Positions 526 through 12,581 of a DNA stretch of 33,234 bases are shown here, in pieces. This DNA is from an uncultured Rubritalea sp. GTDB lineage: Bacteria > Verrucomicrobiota > Verrucomicrobiia > Verrucomicrobiales > Akkermansiaceae. How positions within the stretch are numbered: the first letter of the stretch is position 1; every line of letters begins with the position of its first letter. The position numbers and the translations under genes were made by a program. Where the stretch lies: assembly GCA_937132085.1 (NCBI GenBank), contig CAKZNV010000204.1:1-33234 (forward strand). Direction: 5' to 3'. The notes below the pieces were generated by a model, which saw only the letters and a program-made list of their open reading frames with translations, was not told the DNA's origin and did no database searches.

Positions 526-2559
526 CTAGGTTTCTACATCATTATCTAAGCTGTTGATCAGTATCCTTAACTTATTAGTGCGACCTTCTTTCTCTAGGTA
601 TTCGCTGTAATTTTCTTGCGCACGATTTAGCAAATTTTGATAAGTTCTAACACGTATTCCTTGGACCTTGAGCATGGCTTCTTCGTTATACTTATTAGCT
701 TCAACATCCCATCCTCTTGGCAATTTACCTAATAAAACTACTGTTTCAGGTAAGTCTACAGAATATCCTTCTTTTTCTCCAAATACTGACATTTTAGCAG
801 CCCTGTGAGCTTTGATATATTTATCACACTGTTTAAAAATTTCATGAAAATCTACAGTTCTTTCAAACCTTTTGAGTTCTATAATCACATCTTTTCCATC
901 AATAGATTTGTATGCGATATCGATTCTTCCATTTTCAACATCAGCAGGATCTACATCTTTCTCCCATGCTGTTCTAATAGATTTCTCTACAGTAACATCA
1001 CCCTTTTCAACTGCACGTTCCCAGGAGGTGTTCAGTAACCAAAGATTTTCCGCGACAAGTGCTTGAAGTTCTTTCTCTAACGCATTCCTGTCTATTAGTT
1101 CTTTTAACTTTTCAATCACCCGGATTCTTCCAGCAGCTATTTCCCCATACATAGTAGCCTCTAGTCGATTTATATCACAAAAAGCCTCTGTGATTTTTTG
1201 AATTTCATCGTCGCTAACTTCGTCGATATCTTCAAGCCTTTGCTGATGATCTAAGTATTCAAAAGCGATGATAGTATGTTTAATAATGGTTTTTTGCTCA
1301 TCTTGTGAACTGCCGTCTTTGACTACTTTTTTGAGAATATTCTTAGCATACTTCTTGGATTTATCACTCAATGTTTCCATCCATTCTTCAACAGCTGGTA
1401 GACTTAGCAGGGTCTTTTCAACCTTCGCCTTACGAAGCTTGGCTATGGATGTTATAACCTTTTTAACCTCAGTTGAAAGTCGTTTACACAGTTTAAAGTA
1501 TCTGTCGTCGCCCTCTTTAAGCCCTTGTCGACTAGATAGGGCAATGTCTTCTTCATTTGTATCATCAATAAAATCAGCTGAAAGCTCTCCCATAATATAT
1601 TGTCGATAAACTCTGTCGTCGCCAATTTGAGGTAGTAAGTCTTCATGAGCCAATTTCCCTCGCACTAAAAGGATAAGTTTATTGAGGCTATGACTATCCT
1701 CATCTGTAATTTGTCCCGTATGAGCTACCGCACCTAACCAACCCGTTACCGTATGTTGTTCACCATTATGCTCAATAACCAATGGATCTTTTTGATAGCT
1801 ACAAATTGTGATTGGCTCACGACTTAAATCATCTCCTAGATTTTTACAGTATTTTTCATATTTCTTTTTACCTGCCTCTCCATACCACCATATTTCTTGT
1901 AGCTTATGAAAATATTTACGGTCCTCTGCAGTCACGGGTTTACCACCTATCGATACAGAAAAATTTTGGTCAGATTCAATAACTGAAAATCGCCTAGCAA
2001 TTCTTGTCCTTAAATAGTTTGAAACTCTACTAATATTAACTTTAAGGTCAGAGAGAATAATCCTTGTGCCTCCATTCTTTAAACCTACAACTTTACTCTT
2101 TTCAATAGTTTCAGGAAGATAATCTAACTCTAGCTCTGCCTTGTCTTTGATCTCATTGAACTTAAGACGAACACCACCTCTAAACTCTTCTAAACCTTCA
2201 TTACATACTACAGATTGAACCTCAGCTGTATTGGCAATTGAAAACATTGACAATTTACCGATTCCTTTACGCCCCATATATCTGCGTTGGAACTTTGGGC
2301 TCTTGTCTTTATCTGCTCCTCGCTTTCTGTAACCAACATTAAGAAACTTATCTTGAAGGTCTGACGCATTCATACCGCATCCATCGTCTTCAATGGTAAT
2401 TACACCTTTATCTAACTCAAAATTGATATTAACATTTTGAGCATCTGCATCCCAAGAGTTTGCTACAAGCTCTGAAAGCATAGCAGGTGTATTGCTATAC
2501 AAATTGACTCCGAGCTCGTCTAGGACAGTTAATTGGATCTTAAGTTTATAGGAGTTCAT
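526..2559 (-). CDS. GHKL (MutL/MORC-like) ATPase with C-terminal PD-(D/E)xK-like nuclease domain
   Basis: 677 residues. The N-terminal ~170 residues form a GHKL ATPase: N-box ELVANSWDADA (E29, N33, D36), G1 motif DDGCGM (57-62), G2 motif GRKGIGKLS (95-103) and a GGT motif (162-164). A helical middle follows. Near the C-terminus, RID (D547) and IELK (E561, K563) have the spacing of a PD-(D/E)xK nuclease core, preceded by a helix with ENLWLLNTSWE as in Shedu/DUF4263-type nucleases. Its ATG lies inside the stop of the upstream cytosine methyltransferase (ATGA overlap), so the two are translationally coupled. MutL/MORC-family ATPases beside methyltransferases are a described class of restriction-related genes. 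I infer the restriction or effector half of a modification-dependent defence module. The ATPase call is firm; the nuclease call rests on motif spacing only. Confidence 0.85.
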   Translation of the reverse strand: MNSYKLKIQLTVLDELGVNLYSNTPAMLSELVANSWDADAQNVNINFELDKGVITIEDDGCGMNASDLQDKFLNVGYRKRGADKDKSPKFQRRYMGRKGIGKLSMFSIANTAEVQSVVCNEGLEEFRGGVRLKFNEIKDKAELELDYLPETIEKSKVVGLKNGGTRIILSDLKVNISRVSNYLRTRIARRFSVIESDQNFSVSIGGKPVTAEDRKYFHKLQEIWWYGEAGKKKYEKYCKNLGDDLSREPITICSYQKDPLVIEHNGEQHTVTGWLGAVAHTGQITDEDSHSLNKLILLVRGKLAHEDLLPQIGDDRVYRQYIMGELSADFIDDTNEEDIALSSRQGLKEGDDRYFKLCKRLSTEVKKVITSIAKLRKAKVEKTLLSLPAVEEWMETLSDKSKKYAKNILKKVVKDGSSQDEQKTIIKHTIIAFEYLDHQQRLEDIDEVSDDEIQKITEAFCDINRLEATMYGEIAAGRIRVIEKLKELIDRNALEKELQALVAENLWLLNTSWERAVEKGDVTVEKSIRTAWEKDVDPADVENGRIDIAYKSIDGKDVIIELKRFERTVDFHEIFKQCDKYIKAHRAAKMSVFGEKEGYSVDLPETVVLLGKLPRGWDVEANKYNEEAMLKVQGIRVRTYQNLLNRAQENYSEYLEKEGRTNKLRILINSLDNDVET

Positions 2560-3617
2560 AACTTTTTATCTGATTGAAGTTCTTTTAAATGAGAATTGAT
2601 ACTTTTTGCTATGAGTTCCCCCAAAACGACAGGAACGGCGTTGCCAATGAGTCTGCCTAAAGTTTTCTTAACAACGGGTTGACCAGGAGATACAAACTTA
2701 TAGTTTTTGGGAAAACTCTGCAACATAGCTCCTTCTCTCAAGCTAATTGCTCTATCTTGTTCGGGGTGTCCGAACCTACCATTTCCAAATCCGAAAAATT
2801 GTGTTGTCATGGTTGGAGCGGGTTTGCCCCATTCCATCCTACCGTATACTCCTGGGTATGTTTTTCCGCTAGCTTTGCGATGACATTTAGCAACTAATTC
2901 AATATCCCAATCTCTCCACGTTCCTCCTGGTTTAGAAGCTCTTATACGCCTTATGTTTAATTCATTTAGAGCTGAAGATTGGTGTAGAGGATCCGTTTGG
3001 CTGGCTTCACCAGAGGCAATCGCTGGTAATTTGCCAATTACATCTCTTACTGTTTTCTTTTTTCGTTTAAATTTAGCTGAAGAAATCACTTCAATCTCTC
3101 CTAATTTTGAGGCCAATAAAACTAGACGTTTTCTCTGTTGGGCTAGACCATATTCAGAGCAGTCGATAATCTTCTTTGACACATAGTAACCTTGTTGTTC
3201 TAGATTTTCGATGAACTTAAGAAATACATCTTGATCTTCAAGACCGGGCACGTTTTCCATGGTCACCAATTGTGGTTTAATTTCTTCTACTAGTCTACCA
3301 AACTCAAGAAGTAGCCACCACCTAGCATCGTCATTTGTAGCTTTTTGATTGTAAGATGAAAATGTCTGACAAGGAGCGCAGCCTGCAAGTAGTTTAATAG
3401 AATCACCATCATAATAGTCAGCTATGTCTTCGGCTGAAACATCTGTGACTGATTTTAGTAGGAATTCACCAGAATTGTTTTCGGCAAAAGGGTATTCACA
3501 AGCTGGGTCAACATCAACTCCTAGTCTCACCTCTATACCACCTTTTTCTAGACCTTTTGTAAGGCCACCAGCCCCACAAAATAGATCAATCGCTTGGACT
3601 GTGCTTAAGTTCATCAT
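2556..3617 (-). CDS. DNA (cytosine-5)-methyltransferase
   Basis: 353 residues with the ordered motifs of a C5 methyltransferase: motif I IDLFCGAGGLTKGLE (SAM binding) near the N-terminus, motif IV APCQTFSSYN with the catalytic Cys, motif VI MENVPGL, motif VIII QQRKRLVLLAS, a variable target-recognition region, and motif X GNAVPVVLGELIA at the C-terminus. It methylates cytosine C5 in a sequence I cannot predict. The gene begins with two consecutive ATGs; an AAGGA just upstream is better spaced for the second (3614), and this is one of the few Shine-Dalgarno-like sequences in the window, which fits a foreign origin. It is the first gene of a two-gene operon with the GHKL ATPase-nuclease; no separate restriction endonuclease is visible, so the partner is the likely effector. 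Confidence 0.95.
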   Translation of the reverse strand: MMNLSTVQAIDLFCGAGGLTKGLEKGGIEVRLGVDVDPACEYPFAENNSGEFLLKSVTDVSAEDIADYYDGDSIKLLAGCAPCQTFSSYNQKATNDDARWWLLLEFGRLVEEIKPQLVTMENVPGLEDQDVFLKFIENLEQQGYYVSKKIIDCSEYGLAQQRKRLVLLASKLGEIEVISSAKFKRKKKTVRDVIGKLPAIASGEASQTDPLHQSSALNELNIRRIRASKPGGTWRDWDIELVAKCHRKASGKTYPGVYGRMEWGKPAPTMTTQFFGFGNGRFGHPEQDRAISLREGAMLQSFPKNYKFVSPGQPVVKKTLGRLIGNAVPVVLGELIAKSINSHLKELQSDKKL

Positions 3618-3814: not shown

Positions 3815-3889
<75 letters not shown>

Positions 3890-7677: not shown

Positions 7678-10600
7678 ATGAAAACAACCAACATACTAAA
7701 AACGTTATCAATTCTGTTGATGACATCAATAGGCTGCATGGCTCACGGAACTGTGAGCGATCCAGTTAGTCGGGTTCGGACGATCTACCTAGATGGGCCA
7801 GCCTCACCCAGCACACCATCAGCAGTGGCGGCAGTCGCAAAAGCAGGTCCGCTTCCATACTACACATGGAATCAGATCTCACAGAACATCCCTAACTACG
7901 CAGACCCAGCTTTCAACACGAGCTACGCAACCGTCATCCCAGATGGTAAGCTAGCTAGTGGTAATAATACCGGCCAAGGAGCTCTCGACTTCTCTGGTCT
8001 CGACCTAGTTAGCAATGACTGGGATTGGCCTACGACTCCGATGACGGCAGGTGTGAAGTCGATCACTTGGCTGGCTACAGCCCCGCATGACCCTTCATTC
8101 TTCAAGGTCTGGATCACTAAGGCTAACTATGATCCTAAGAGCCCTCTCGCATGGGGAGATTTAGAATTTCTCGGTAAATTTGACCCAGCAGACTACACTA
8201 AGAACGGACTAAACTACAACATGAATGTTAATATCCCTCAGCGTAGCGGTAAGCATGTTCTCTACGTAGCTTGGCAACGTGTAGACCCAGTGGGTGAAGT
8301 GTTTTTCTCAGTATCTGACCTTCAGTTCGCAGGAACTAATACTGGCGGATCTGGTGGTTCTGGCGACGGCGGTGAAACTGGTGGAGGAGGCAATAGTGCT
8401 GATCCTGTAGCTAGTATCGCAAACGTATCTGCAGCGGAAAACCAAGGTTCAGTCATGCTCAATGTGACTCTTGATAAGCCTGTGCCTGCTGGCGAAACAG
8501 CTTCTGTCAACTATCAGACTACAGATGGCTCAGCCACTGCACCGAATGATTTCACAGCAGCTAACGGAACACTCACCTTTGCGGCTGGTGAATCTAGTAA
8601 AACGATCACGCTAGCAATCAACGATGACCAGACCCATGAGATGGCAGAGTCATTCTACGTCAGCCTAACAGCTGCAACTAACCTCACTCTTGCGACTGCA
8701 TCAGCTACAGTAAACATCGTCGATAACGACACCGTAATTACTACTCCAGGCACTCGCACCAAGCTACCTGTCACTACTAAGATCGTGGCTGGATACTGGC
8801 ATAACTGGCAAAACGCTTCAGCACCAGCGATCAGACTCGGTAACGTATCACACAAGTATAACGTGGTTTACATTTCATTCGCAGAGCCAACATCTGCCGA
8901 TGACGGAACGATGGCATTTAGCCCATCACCTGATGTCCCAGGTGCAGCTCAGTTTAAAGCTGACGTCCAAGCTCTCCAAGCAAGAGGCACCAAGGTGCTC
9001 ATCTCACTCGGCGGAGCAAACGGTCATGTGACTCTTGGCAACGCAGCTAAGAAAACAAACTTCGTCAATTCAATGATTCAAATCATCGACGAATATGGCT
9101 TCGACGGTTTCGATATCGACATTGAAGGCGGAGCATCACTTTCTATCGACGCTGGTGACAATGACTACAAGAACCCTACGACTACACGTATTGTGAACTT
9201 CATCGATGCGACTCGTCAGATCTGTAATCACTTCGGTAATGGCTTCATGCTCACTACTGCTCCAGAGACAGCTTATGTTCAAGGCGCAGCATCAGTTTAC
9301 GGCGGATCATGGGGTGGATACATCCCTATCATTCACGCACTTCGTGACAAGCTCGACTACGTTCACGTCCAATACTACAACAGTGGAACAATCTATGGAG
9401 CTGACGGTGGAATCTATGCGCAAGGTAGCGTTGATTTCCTCGTAGCACTCTCAGAGTCACTACTAAAAGGCTTCACAATGGCCAATGGACAAGAGTTCAT
9501 CCCACTCAGAGAAGATCAAGTAGCCTTCGGTTTACCATCGACTCCATCATCAGCACCAGCTGGTGGTTACATTCCTATGAATGACGTCGTTTCTGCTATC
9601 AAATACATCACCACTGGTGACAAAGCAGGATCAGGCTATACAGGCAACTACACACTTCTGAAAGCTTCTGGTGGCTACACTGGATTCCGCGGAACTATGG
9701 CTTGGTCTATCAACTGGGACGCATCTACTGACGGAGGCACTAGCCCTCAAGAATACGTCAATACCATCAGCACTCACTACGGTGCTGCTACAGGTGGTGG
9801 GGATGACGGTCACGGTGGCAATGACACTACCATGATGATGATCGCTCCAGTCTCAACACTAGAAGGCAATGTAGGTCAAACCACACTTACCTTCAATGTA
9901 ACACTAGCTCAGGCTAACACACATGTGACTACAGCAGACTACCTCACAGTAAATGGCACAGCCCAAAGCGGTAGCGACTACGCTCCAGCGACAGGCACAC
10001 TAACATTTGCCCCAGGTGAGACAATGAAGCAGATCGCGGTCACCGTGTATGGCGATACTGATGTAGAGCCAGATGAGGCATTCACACTAGTGCTGGATAA
10101 TGTTTCTAGCAACGCTCACGCACACGTAAGCTTCGCAGCCGGAACGATCCAGAACGATGATGCTGACCCAGGTCTACCTACTGTTAGCGCTACTGGAGCT
10201 TCAGTAATAGAAGGTGATGCAGCTACTAAAACAGCACGCGTCACTCTATCACTCGACGTCCCATTCAACGATGACGTAACTATCGACTACACTACCAGAG
10301 ATGACTCTGCGCAGGCTAACTCAGATTACGTCACAAAGACTGGCACAGTGACATTTATCGCAGGTGAAACTGAGAAGTTTATCGATGTGACTATCTATGG
10401 CGACACTGCTGTAGAAGTAGATGAATCATTCACAGTAGACTTCAGTAATGTTCAGAATGCTACATTCTCAGGTAACAATGCTACGATCCAGATCCTCAAC
10501 GACGACACAGCTGTAGGCGGTGGCGGAGGTGACGGAGATGCGAATGTTTCCATCAGCTTCAAATCACCTAACAGCGCTTGGACCAATGGCTTCGGCGGTG

Positions 10601-11565
10601 CTGACATCGTGATCACTAACAACGGCCCAGCTCTCACGAACTGGACGCTTGAGTTTGACGCGGCATGGGGCAGAGGCGGATTCTGGAACGCAGGATCTTG
10701 GACTGTAAATGGCAACCACCACACCATCACAAACCCAGCTTGGGGAACCCTAGGTAGCGGACAATCTATCACTGTAGGATTCACTGGATCTGGCAGCTGG
10801 ACCCACCCTACCAACATTAAATTCAACGGAGCAGCCCTAGATGGCGGTGACGGTGGAGGAAATGACGACGGTAACGGCGGCGGAGACGATGAAGTAGTCA
10901 CACCAAACATCACAGTAGCAGGAGCGACTGTAGTAGAAGGTGACAACGGCACTAAAACAGTCACAGCGACTGTCAGCCTCAGTGAAGCAACAACGCAACA
11001 AGTAGCGGTGAACTACTCCACCAGAGATGGCGGAGCACTAGCAGGTAGTGATTATCAGGCAGCAGCAGGAACTCTTTCCTTCGCAGCTGGTGAGACTACT
11101 AAATCAGTCACACTCACCATCAATGGCGATGAAGACGTAGAAGCAGATGAGAGTTTCGACCTCATCCTCTCAGCAGCAGTCAACGGCGTCATCACTACTG
11201 GAGAAGCAGCAGTCACCATCACCAATGATGACACTGAGCCAGACGGCGGCGGAGATGCTAACCCTAATGTCACCATTACATTCAAGGCGCCTACAAGCTC
11301 TTGGAGCGGAGCATTCGGCGGTGCAGATATCGTCATCAAAAACAACGGCCCAGCGATCGAGAACTGGACACTGAAGTTTGATGCAGCTTGGAACAAAACT
11401 GGATTCTGGAATGCAGGATCTTGGACAGTGAACGGTGGAAAACACACCATCACACAGCCAACATGGGGCGGCTACAAGCTCGGTGCAGGTGAGACCATCA
11501 CCATCGGATTCACAGGATCTGGCACATGGGCAATGCCTACCAACGCAGTCCTCACCTCTGAGTAA
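7678..11565 (+). CDS. Secreted multi-modular LPMO (AA10) - GH18 chitinase with Calx-beta and CBM2 modules
   Basis: 1295 residues, exported. A signal peptide (1-22) precedes H23, which becomes the N-terminal residue of an AA10 lytic polysaccharide monooxygenase (23-217): copper-brace H23 and H137 (in TAPHDPSFFKVWIT) and axial F209. A Gly/Ser linker leads to a Calx-beta module (about 241-352), then a GH18 chitinase (367-700) with SLGG (443-446), catalytic DGFDIDIE (476-483, acid E483), QYYN (565-568) and MAWSINWD (674-681). Two Calx-beta modules follow (about 720-828 and 833-943), then a CBM2-like module (955-1050), a fourth Calx-beta (1075-1186) and a second CBM2-like module (1196-1293). The protein should cut crystalline chitin oxidatively and hydrolytically on one chain. 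It has no C-terminal sorting signal, is monocistronic and ends before a terminator. Confidence 0.93.
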   Translation: MKTTNILKTLSILLMTSIGCMAHGTVSDPVSRVRTIYLDGPASPSTPSAVAAVAKAGPLPYYTWNQISQNIPNYADPAFNTSYATVIPDGKLASGNNTGQGALDFSGLDLVSNDWDWPTTPMTAGVKSITWLATAPHDPSFFKVWITKANYDPKSPLAWGDLEFLGKFDPADYTKNGLNYNMNVNIPQRSGKHVLYVAWQRVDPVGEVFFSVSDLQFAGTNTGGSGGSGDGGETGGGGNSADPVASIANVSAAENQGSVMLNVTLDKPVPAGETASVNYQTTDGSATAPNDFTAANGTLTFAAGESSKTITLAINDDQTHEMAESFYVSLTAATNLTLATASATVNIVDNDTVITTPGTRTKLPVTTKIVAGYWHNWQNASAPAIRLGNVSHKYNVVYISFAEPTSADDGTMAFSPSPDVPGAAQFKADVQALQARGTKVLISLGGANGHVTLGNAAKKTNFVNSMIQIIDEYGFDGFDIDIEGGASLSIDAGDNDYKNPTTTRIVNFIDATRQICNHFGNGFMLTTAPETAYVQGAASVYGGSWGGYIPIIHALRDKLDYVHVQYYNSGTIYGADGGIYAQGSVDFLVALSESLLKGFTMANGQEFIPLREDQVAFGLPSTPSSAPAGGYIPMNDVVSAIKYITTGDKAGSGYTGNYTLLKASGGYTGFRGTMAWSINWDASTDGGTSPQEYVNTISTHYGAATGGGDDGHGGNDTTMMMIAPVSTLEGNVGQTTLTFNVTLAQANTHVTTADYLTVNGTAQSGSDYAPATGTLTFAPGETMKQIAVTVYGDTDVEPDEAFTLVLDNVSSNAHAHVSFAAGTIQNDDADPGLPTVSATGASVIEGDAATKTARVTLSLDVPFNDDVTIDYTTRDDSAQANSDYVTKTGTVTFIAGETEKFIDVTIYGDTAVEVDESFTVDFSNVQNATFSGNNATIQILNDDTAVGGGGGDGDANVSISFKSPNSAWTNGFGGADIVITNNGPALTNWTLEFDAAWGRGGFWNAGSWTVNGNHHTITNPAWGTLGSGQSITVGFTGSGSWTHPTNIKFNGAALDGGDGGGNDDGNGGGDDEVVTPNITVAGATVVEGDNGTKTVTATVSLSEATTQQVAVNYSTRDGGALAGSDYQAAAGTLSFAAGETTKSVTLTINGDEDVEADESFDLILSAAVNGVITTGEAAVTITNDDTEPDGGGDANPNVTITFKAPTSSWSGAFGGADIVIKNNGPAIENWTLKFDAAWNKTGFWNAGSWTVNGGKHTITQPTWGGYKLGAGETITIGFTGSGTWAMPTNAVLTSE

Positions 11566-11597: not shown

Positions 11598-11635
11598 CAA
11601 GGCTTGAAGGGCATACGCTCTTCAGGCCTTTTTTG
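11598..11635 (+). terminator. Rho-independent terminator of the chitinase gene
   Basis: AAGGCTTGAAG (11599-11609) pairs with CTTCAGGCCTT (11620-11630) with one bulge, followed by TTTTTTG. It lies 33 bp past the stop codon. Confidence 0.85.
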
Positions 11636-11756: not shown

Positions 11757-12140
11757 ATGAAACCAAAACGCCTCAAACTACTCATTGCTATTCTCATTAC
11801 GATTGGATGCGTAATAGGTGTATATGGATTTCTTAGCGATGAACTAACAGGACTCTGGCCTGCTGCCGTGCTGACCTGCGTCTTCACCTCTCACCTCTTG
11901 AACATCCCACACAACTCAGGTCGCTACTGGTCCTGCATTATAGCGATTGGTTTATTCACCTACGCAATCTACAAACTCTCAGCCCATCTCGGTTGGTTTG
12001 GCATCCAAGCGCCTGAAGCGCTCTCATTGGCAGTCGGATTAGGTATCCCAATTTTCACCTTCCTAAGCGGATTTCTAGTCGTGAAACTCACCTTCGATGC
12101 AACCGTCTGCAAATTCTTTGATCAGAGCGAAACAGATTAA
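11757..12140 (+). CDS. Small hypothetical membrane protein
   Basis: 127 residues. I do not recognise the family. Four hydrophobic segments are visible: LLIAILITIGCVIGVYGF near the N-terminus, a second around LWPAAVLTCVFTSHLL, a third around YWSCIIAIGLFTYAIY, and a fourth around LGIPIFTFLSGFLVVKL, with a positively charged N-terminus (KPKRLK) that should stay in the cytoplasm. It is followed 15 bp later by a second small membrane protein, suggesting a two-gene unit. No catalytic motif is visible. Confidence 0.7.
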   Translation: MKPKRLKLLIAILITIGCVIGVYGFLSDELTGLWPAAVLTCVFTSHLLNIPHNSGRYWSCIIAIGLFTYAIYKLSAHLGWFGIQAPEALSLAVGLGIPIFTFLSGFLVVKLTFDATVCKFFDQSETD

Positions 12141-12155
12141 CTAGCACCCTAACCC

Positions 12156-12581
12156 ATGAGCAATCTTAAACCATCACTGAGCATCCTAGCAAAGATAATC
12201 TCGCATATAATGCTATTTGCCTACACTGCCTACTTTATCAATAAGGACACCCCAAATACTGGTTTTTCATCGATTGAACTCTGCATACCACCATTCATCT
12301 TAACTCTCCTCTCAGCTACGCTGTATTTCCCAATGAAAACTAGCGATAGGGACCAGAATGCGATCAAGAGTTTGAGCTTATCCACTATCATATTATGCTG
12401 TGCTACCCTTTTTCTCGTCTTCACAGTGTATCGGAGCGGAGCTATCATGCAATACGATGACTGGATTGGCAAAGGAATGCCACCCAGACCAACAGATGCA
12501 AACTTACTGCCAATGCTCACCCTCTTTTGTGGCATCAGCCTTTCCGCCCTACCATCAAGACTTTCCAAAAAATTCATATAA
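12156..12581 (+). CDS. Small hypothetical membrane protein
   Basis: 141 residues, unrecognised. Hydrophobic segments occur at about residues 12-28 (AKIISHIMLFAYTAYF), 41-58 (ELCIPPFILTLLSATLYF), 74-90 (LSTIILCCATLFLVF) and near the C-terminus (LLPMLTLFCGISLSAL), giving about four membrane passes. Between the third and fourth is a short polar loop with DDWIGKGMPPRPTD. It follows the preceding membrane-protein gene by 15 bp in the same direction, so the two are probably cotranscribed. Confidence 0.65.
   Translation: MSNLKPSLSILAKIISHIMLFAYTAYFINKDTPNTGFSSIELCIPPFILTLLSATLYFPMKTSDRDQNAIKSLSLSTIILCCATLFLVFTVYRSGAIMQYDDWIGKGMPPRPTDANLLPMLTLFCGISLSALPSRLSKKFI

Follow-up and report, generated by a model that had tools for sequence, protein, structure and literature searches.

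Can one secreted protein bring oxidative and hydrolytic attack on chitin together in a single chain, and how would such a protein have been assembled? This question is raised by a gene on the plus strand at positions 7678 to 11565 of a 33,234-nucleotide stretch of DNA (termed here the window) from contig CAKZNV010000204.1 of an uncultured Rubritalea sp. (assembly GCA_937132085.1; Verrucomicrobiota, Akkermansiaceae). A preliminary description had read it as a single polypeptide that joins a lytic polysaccharide monooxygenase (LPMO) of family AA10, a chitinase of family GH18, four Calx-beta modules, and two CBM2-like modules, and had suggested processive chitin degradation. We estimate a probability of roughly 0.8 that the gene encodes a secreted bicatalytic chitin degrader, in which an oxidative site would be tethered to a non-processive hydrolytic site, and that it arose from an AA10-Calx family by module replacement.

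Architecture of the fusion protein

The gene is one complete open frame with an ATG start, 1295 codons, and 0 internal stops. The domain assignment by hidden Markov models (HMMs) for which the preliminary description had called placed both AA10 and GH18 in Pfam, and all Pfam matches of the fusion protein exceeded the curated cut-offs; together with the open frame, this bears out the single polypeptide and its complement of modules. Read from the N terminus, the one chain, predicted to be secreted, consists of a signal peptide, AA10, Calx, GH18, Calx, Calx, CBM2, Calx, and CBM2. The features are as follows (aa, amino acids).

7678..11565 (+): whole gene, encoding a 1295-aa AA10-Calx-GH18-Calx-Calx-CBM2-Calx-CBM2 protein (single open frame; Pfam)
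7678..7743 (+): predicted signal peptide, aa 1-22 (MKTTNILKTLSILLMTSIGCMA ahead of HGTV)
7744..8328 (+): AA10 LPMO catalytic domain, aa 23-217, with H23, H137, F209 and N65/T134 (Pfam; alignment to 7zjb; residue table)
8407..8733 (+): Calx-beta 1, aa 244-352 (Pfam; NCX/CALX CBD matches)
8776..9747 (+): GH18 catalytic domain, subfamily B, aa 367-690 (phmmer 8e-88; model TM 0.90 to ChiNCTU2)
9124-9126 (+): codon of the catalytic E483 of GH18
9850..10179 (+): Calx-beta 2, aa 725-834 (Pfam; HMM built in this analysis)
10201..10512 (+): Calx-beta 3, aa 842-945 (Pfam; HMM built in this analysis)
10540..10848 (+): CBM2, first copy, aa 955-1057 (Pfam CBM_2; match to the ChiC CBM2 in 2rtt)
10924..11235 (+): Calx-beta 4, aa 1083-1186 (Pfam; structure matches)
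11260..11562 (+): CBM2, second copy, aa 1195-1295 (Pfam, second stretch; pairwise alignment; 6bt9 match)
11599..11630 (+): predicted terminator-like hairpin 3' of the stop codon, 14-bp stem and T-run (consensus scan)

Since the hairpin follows right after the stop codon, the fusion gene probably ends a transcript.

The predicted oxidative and hydrolytic domains

The LPMO_10 profile matched aa 23-215 with an E value of 1.6e-37 and 130.4 bits (cut-off, 23). The predicted cleavage after aa 22 would leave His23 as the N terminus, and the mature AA10s of solved relatives begin at the matching His. The copper brace proposed earlier (H23, H137, F209) was confirmed in two ways: in an alignment to 7zjb these residues line up with the copper ligands and the axial Phe of ScLPMO10D, and they are invariant in the relatives whose sequences cover those positions. 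The best solved relatives include the chitin-active AsLPMO10B (7okr) as well as ScLPMO10D (7zjb), CbpD (8c5n), and CjLPMO10A (5fjq). The last three are listed as chitin oxidizing, and chitin activity has been tied to the polar pair Asn76/Thr131 of ScLPMO10D (PMC10067821), the places of which are occupied by N65/T134 in the window AA10. We infer from these residues that the domain may carry out copper-dependent oxidative cleavage of chitin. The second copper His lies in an HDPS[FY]F motif (8086-8103), which is 1-2 residues longer than in ScLPMO10D and marks the AA10 type of the verrucomicrobial clade.

The GH18 domain was recognized by Pfam (E, 1e-17) and, by phmmer, matched the solved Bacillus chitinase 5kz6 over aa 367-685 (8e-88) and Bacillus cereus ChiNCTU2 (1.6e-87). 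The motif DGFDIDIE ends at E483, which is aligned with the Glu of the ChiNCTU2 motif DGIDIDLE, in agreement with the catalytic residue named in the preliminary description, and the GH18 part of a structure model of aa 23-700 superposes on ChiNCTU2 with a TM score of 0.90. The chitinase insertion domain (CID), whose presence marks the processive-type subfamily A, is absent from the window GH18, the ChiNCTU2 alignment over aa 367-685 showing short gaps only. ChiNCTU2 belongs to subfamily B, with no insertion domain and a shallow cleft, and this subfamily is reported to consist of non-processive endo-enzymes, ChiNCTU2 excepted (PMC6831621). Because the window GH18 is a subfamily B enzyme with the ChiNCTU2 fold and no CID, and this group is reported as non-processive, the processive degradation suggested at first is not supported, and we ruled out a processive chitinase.

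Calx-beta and CBM2 modules

Calx-beta matched in four stretches (3.2e-69 in all; 230.9 bits), with fold matches to NCX/CALX CBD1. The aligned relatives all keep the acidic residues of Calx-beta 1 (E254, D291, D316, D317, E321, D349, and D351). Linkers rich in Gly and Asp lie on both sides of the Calx domains, and the fixed distance between the oxidative and hydrolytic sites put forward in the preliminary description is conjectural. The modules are probably stabilized or stiffened by calcium, which they are predicted to bind. CBM_2 matched in two stretches (9.9e-10; 39.1 bits; cut-off, 24); their tryptophans recur in modules of loci L107 and L080, and the two copies are nearest to the chitinase CBM2s in 2rtt and 6bt9. 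A model of the CBM2-Calx-CBM2 tail was of moderate confidence (pLDDT, 65), and a fold search with it gave mostly Calx-beta.

Relatives of the fusion protein

Across 84,980 species genomes scanned, 65 loci with an AA10 of the window type were recovered, nearly all from Verrucomicrobiota, Planctomycetota, or Gammaproteobacteria. AA10 was present in 19 of 387 genomes of the order and, in a phylum-wide sample, in 8 of 388 Verrucomicrobiota genomes. Six of these eight AA10s share their polypeptide with a hydrolase, and one of the other two meets a contig end. Hydrolase fusion is thus common among Verrucomicrobiota AA10s, a point that the preliminary description had missed, and the architectures, established with HMMs built in this analysis and checked with Pfam for 14 proteins, indicate that this phylum has built AA10-hydrolase fusions repeatedly, with different hydrolases.

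The closest counterparts, with the architecture AA10-Calx-CBM2like-Calx-Calx-GH18, come from Akkermansiaceae and allied genomes, among them that of the cultured strain Persicirhabdus sediminis KCTC 22039. In this strain and its Akkermansiaceae/Verrucomicrobiales relatives (together L065, L064, L066, L072, L073, and L074; open frames of 1150-1178 aa), a homologous AA10-Calx head, 46-56% identical to that of the window protein in the best segment, is joined in one polypeptide to a GH18 partner. They differ from the window protein in that (i) the GH18 is C-terminal and of subfamily A, with matches to ChiW, ChiA1, and chitotriosidase, (ii) a single CBM2-like module lies between Calx domains, and (iii) the C-terminal CBM2 pair is lacking. 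Calx-beta modules, the spacing of which had been considered unusual, are usual in this family, its Akkermansiaceae members carrying three per AA10-GH18 protein. Locus L106:5932-9464 carries AA10-Calx-CBM2-Calx-GH18 over two frames, owing to a frameshift or a sequencing error.

Other architectures were observed elsewhere. Chthoniobacterales-type genomes contain AA10-CBM2-GH18 and AA10-CBM2-CBM2-Calx-GH9, and an AA10-CBM2-Ig-like-GH5 protein that reaches the contig end was found in a metagenome-assembled genome (MAG) of Verrucomicrobia subdivision 6 (L075:5920-8225, +). Seven loci (L079, L085, L087, L092, L047, L196, and L198) are AA10-GH9 fusions, often with CBM2 and Calx-beta, in which the AA10 residues depart from the chitin pair. 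Locus L107 (5773-11175, +; JAUIHT010000001.1) encodes 1800 aa with AA10, three CBM2, two Calx-beta, GH9, and GH18, that is, three catalytic domains in one chain, and its AA10 is without the chitin residue pair. The 1623-aa protein of L200 (446-5314, +; genome G684) has AA10, three CBM2, and then GH18 and GH9, the reverse of the hydrolase order in L107.

Substrate residues and the hydrolase partner

The pair N65/T134 was found in 11 of the 12 fusions with GH18 only, in none of the 7 with GH9 only, and in neither of the 2 with both. The single exception, L197, has a GH18 partner and H/P at the pair, which weakens a strict rule by which N65/T134 would follow GH18. As these rows are related by descent and represent about two or three independent groups per side, we consider the association of the LPMO chitin pair with a GH18 partner suggestive and not a proven rule.

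These data bear on whether the protein acts on cellulose or mixed substrates, the CBM2 pair anchoring a cellulose-active LPMO to cellulose. Such a reading would agree with the Pfam labels of the LPMO family ("cellulose-degrading") and of CBM2 ("cellulose binding"), and with the fusion of AA10 relatives to GH9 and GH5. We nevertheless regard it as improbable, given that the GH18 partner has an intact chitinase motif, that N65/T134 are as in the chitin-only ScLPMO10D while GH9-fused relatives carry other residues, and that the CBM2 copies resemble those of chitinases most closely.

Descent of the fusion

In a tree of the 65 AA10 rows, the window AA10 groups with Akkermansiaceae AA10-Calx proteins in a clade of 13 rows (support, 99/99). 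Of these, seven carry a subfamily A GH18 farther along the chain, in one case spread over two frames; the window protein alone has subfamily B, the others having subfamily A or no hydrolase, and the branching within the clade leaves the exact sister of the window head undecided. As the AA10-Calx head is common and everything downstream differs, the downstream modules appear to have been replaced.

The 386 further genomes of the order that were searched for kin of the window GH18 yielded weak hits only (best E, 4e-6). Relatives at 40-47% identity occur elsewhere in the phylum, and the best one, at 53%, is from Persicobacter (Bacteroidota). The latter lies in a 1584-aa frame of Persicobacter sp. 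JZB09 (L178:1518-6272, +) with two GH18 domains, of subfamilies A and B, the subfamily B domain being the closest relative found. Since there are no close GH18-B kin in the sampled genomes of the order and closer ones beyond it, the domain most simply would have entered from another lineage. Not one plasmid record combined AA10 with GH18B over 80% of the query. The ancestor would thus have been a member of the Akkermansiaceae AA10-Calx family, mostly provided with a C-terminal subfamily A GH18, and the part after Calx-beta 1 would have been replaced by a subfamily B GH18 from outside the order and a Calx/CBM2 tail, with duplication of the CBM2. We infer this order of events.

Host genome and neighborhood

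The host genome is a 4.46-Mb MAG of 254 contigs with 2.6% estimated contamination, and the gene was found in no sister genome of the genus, so that an assembly chimera or a contaminant contig has to be considered. The frame is uninterrupted; identity among the Calx-beta modules is 34-45%, and between the two CBM2 copies it is 65% in protein and 76% in DNA, repeats too divergent for an assembly collapse to be likely. Furthermore, the RibD encoded upstream has its nearest matches in genomes of the genus (54-71% identity, full-length matches), which speaks against a contaminant contig, and the AA10 head is nested among Akkermansiaceae. Misassembly or contamination is therefore judged very unlikely, more so than the other alternatives weighed here.

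The fusion is the sole AA10 of this genome and one of two GH18 proteins, the other being a 316-aa single-domain protein. There are nine GH20 matches; a search of the genome for GH19 chitinases gave no match, but the control search was equally silent. An insertion at the upstream tRNA-Gln was considered and set aside, because no empty site could be defined and gene order around ribD varies, only manA-ribD being kept across seven same-genus stretches. Also in the window, a BbrUII/HgiDII-type restriction enzyme and a cytosine-5 methyltransferase form a restriction-modification pair (526-3617, -) that adjoins a tRNA-Thr gene (3815-3889). Two small hydrophobic open reading frames of 127 and 141 aa (11757-12581, +) lie between the fusion gene and prfA and match no Pfam family above the cut-off.

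Proposed mode of action

We propose that the N-terminal AA10 would cleave crystalline chitin oxidatively at its surface, probably at C1, and so open chain ends, that the tethered non-processive GH18 would hydrolyze the loosened chains to oligomers, and that GH20 hexosaminidases of the cell would finish the products. The two C-terminal CBM2 modules would hold the protein on chitin, and the four Calx-beta modules, probably stabilized by calcium, may serve as spacers between the parts.

Several points weigh against this proposal. (i) ScLPMO10D, the closest solved AA10, is weak on alpha-chitin, and CBM2 modules are able to bind cellulose as well as chitin. (ii) In the model of aa 23-700, confidence is low for AA10, because the mixed alignment was noisy. 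(iii) The catalytic activities and calcium binding by Calx-beta are predictions, as are expression and secretion, the source being a MAG. (iv) ChiNCTU2 is an exo-enzyme that on its own leaves crystalline chitin unattacked (PMC6831621), and, as it is the best match, endo action of the window GH18 is uncertain.

It could also be that the LPMO and the chitinase work independently, having come into one chain as a side effect of domain shuffling among secreted proteins rich in repeats. The relatives contain many Calx-beta and CBM2 repeats, which could favor recombination, and the downstream part appears to have been exchanged. This appears unlikely, if less so than action on cellulose, because AA10s are repeatedly fused to hydrolases of several kinds, including 6 of the 8 AA10s in the phylum sample, because their residues tend to vary with the partner, and because intramolecular synergy is known from Jd1381 of Jonesia denitrificans, the whole chain of which, as summarized in PMC10154629, outperforms mixtures of its separate parts. 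By analogy, intramolecular synergy is plausible in the window protein. In engineering work, the benefit from LPMOs is reported to be larger for less processive chitinases (PMC12961735), which may explain why an LPMO would be paired with such a chitinase, as in the tethered chitin degrader proposed here.

For the phylum as a whole, we see about even odds for a broader proposition, namely, that Verrucomicrobiota keep the AA10 head as a constant unit onto which hydrolases are joined and swapped (GH18 A, GH18 B, GH9, GH5, and GH9 plus GH18), with substrate residues following the partner; tethering would then be the normal use of AA10 in this phylum and the window protein a natural swap from a processive-type to a non-processive chitinase. 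This wider radiation is more interesting than the single protein; the literature search covered open-license papers, and a description of this radiation in a subscription journal may exist. The family offers naturally matched enzymes, with related LPMO heads on subfamily A (processive-type) or subfamily B (non-processive-type) chitinases, on which the idea that less processive enzymes gain more (PMC12961735) could be tried, and P. sediminis is a culturable relative. The three-catalyst AA10-GH9-GH18 chains are of potential interest for biomass conversion.

Comparison with known systems

The literature agrees with the preliminary description that AA10-GH18 fusions are known, as in Jonesia, and rare: a survey of AA10 reported two genes with a GH domain (PMC4144037), and one LPMO-hydrolase fusion enzyme had been characterized by 2023 (PMC10154629). 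Our search of open-license papers found none that pairs Calx-beta with a chitinase and an LPMO. The bicatalytic AA10-GH18 kind is thus already known; as far as the searches reached, its arrangement here and the type of GH18 are novel.

Among single parts, ScLPMO10D (7zjb) is the closest solved AA10 and has the copper ligands, the N/T polar pair, and the active-site Glu and Arg in common with the window protein; it differs in being anchored to the cell wall, in a chain without a hydrolase. ChiNCTU2 (B. cereus; PDB 3n11-3n18) and 5kz6 share the GH18 domain and the DxDxE motif, with 44% identity in the structural alignment, but are single-domain proteins without LPMO, CBM, or Calx-beta. As a whole, the protein is most readily compared with Jd1381/JdLPMO10A (AA10-CBM5-GH18; Mekasha et al. 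2020, via PMC10154629), which is likewise a secreted chain directed at chitin that has AA10 at its N terminus and contains a GH18. In the account given there, Jd1381 is set apart by its origin in Actinobacteria, by CBM5 instead of CBM2, and by a chain described without Calx-beta spacers, whereas the window protein carries a subfamily B GH18 in midchain and its CBMs at the C terminus.

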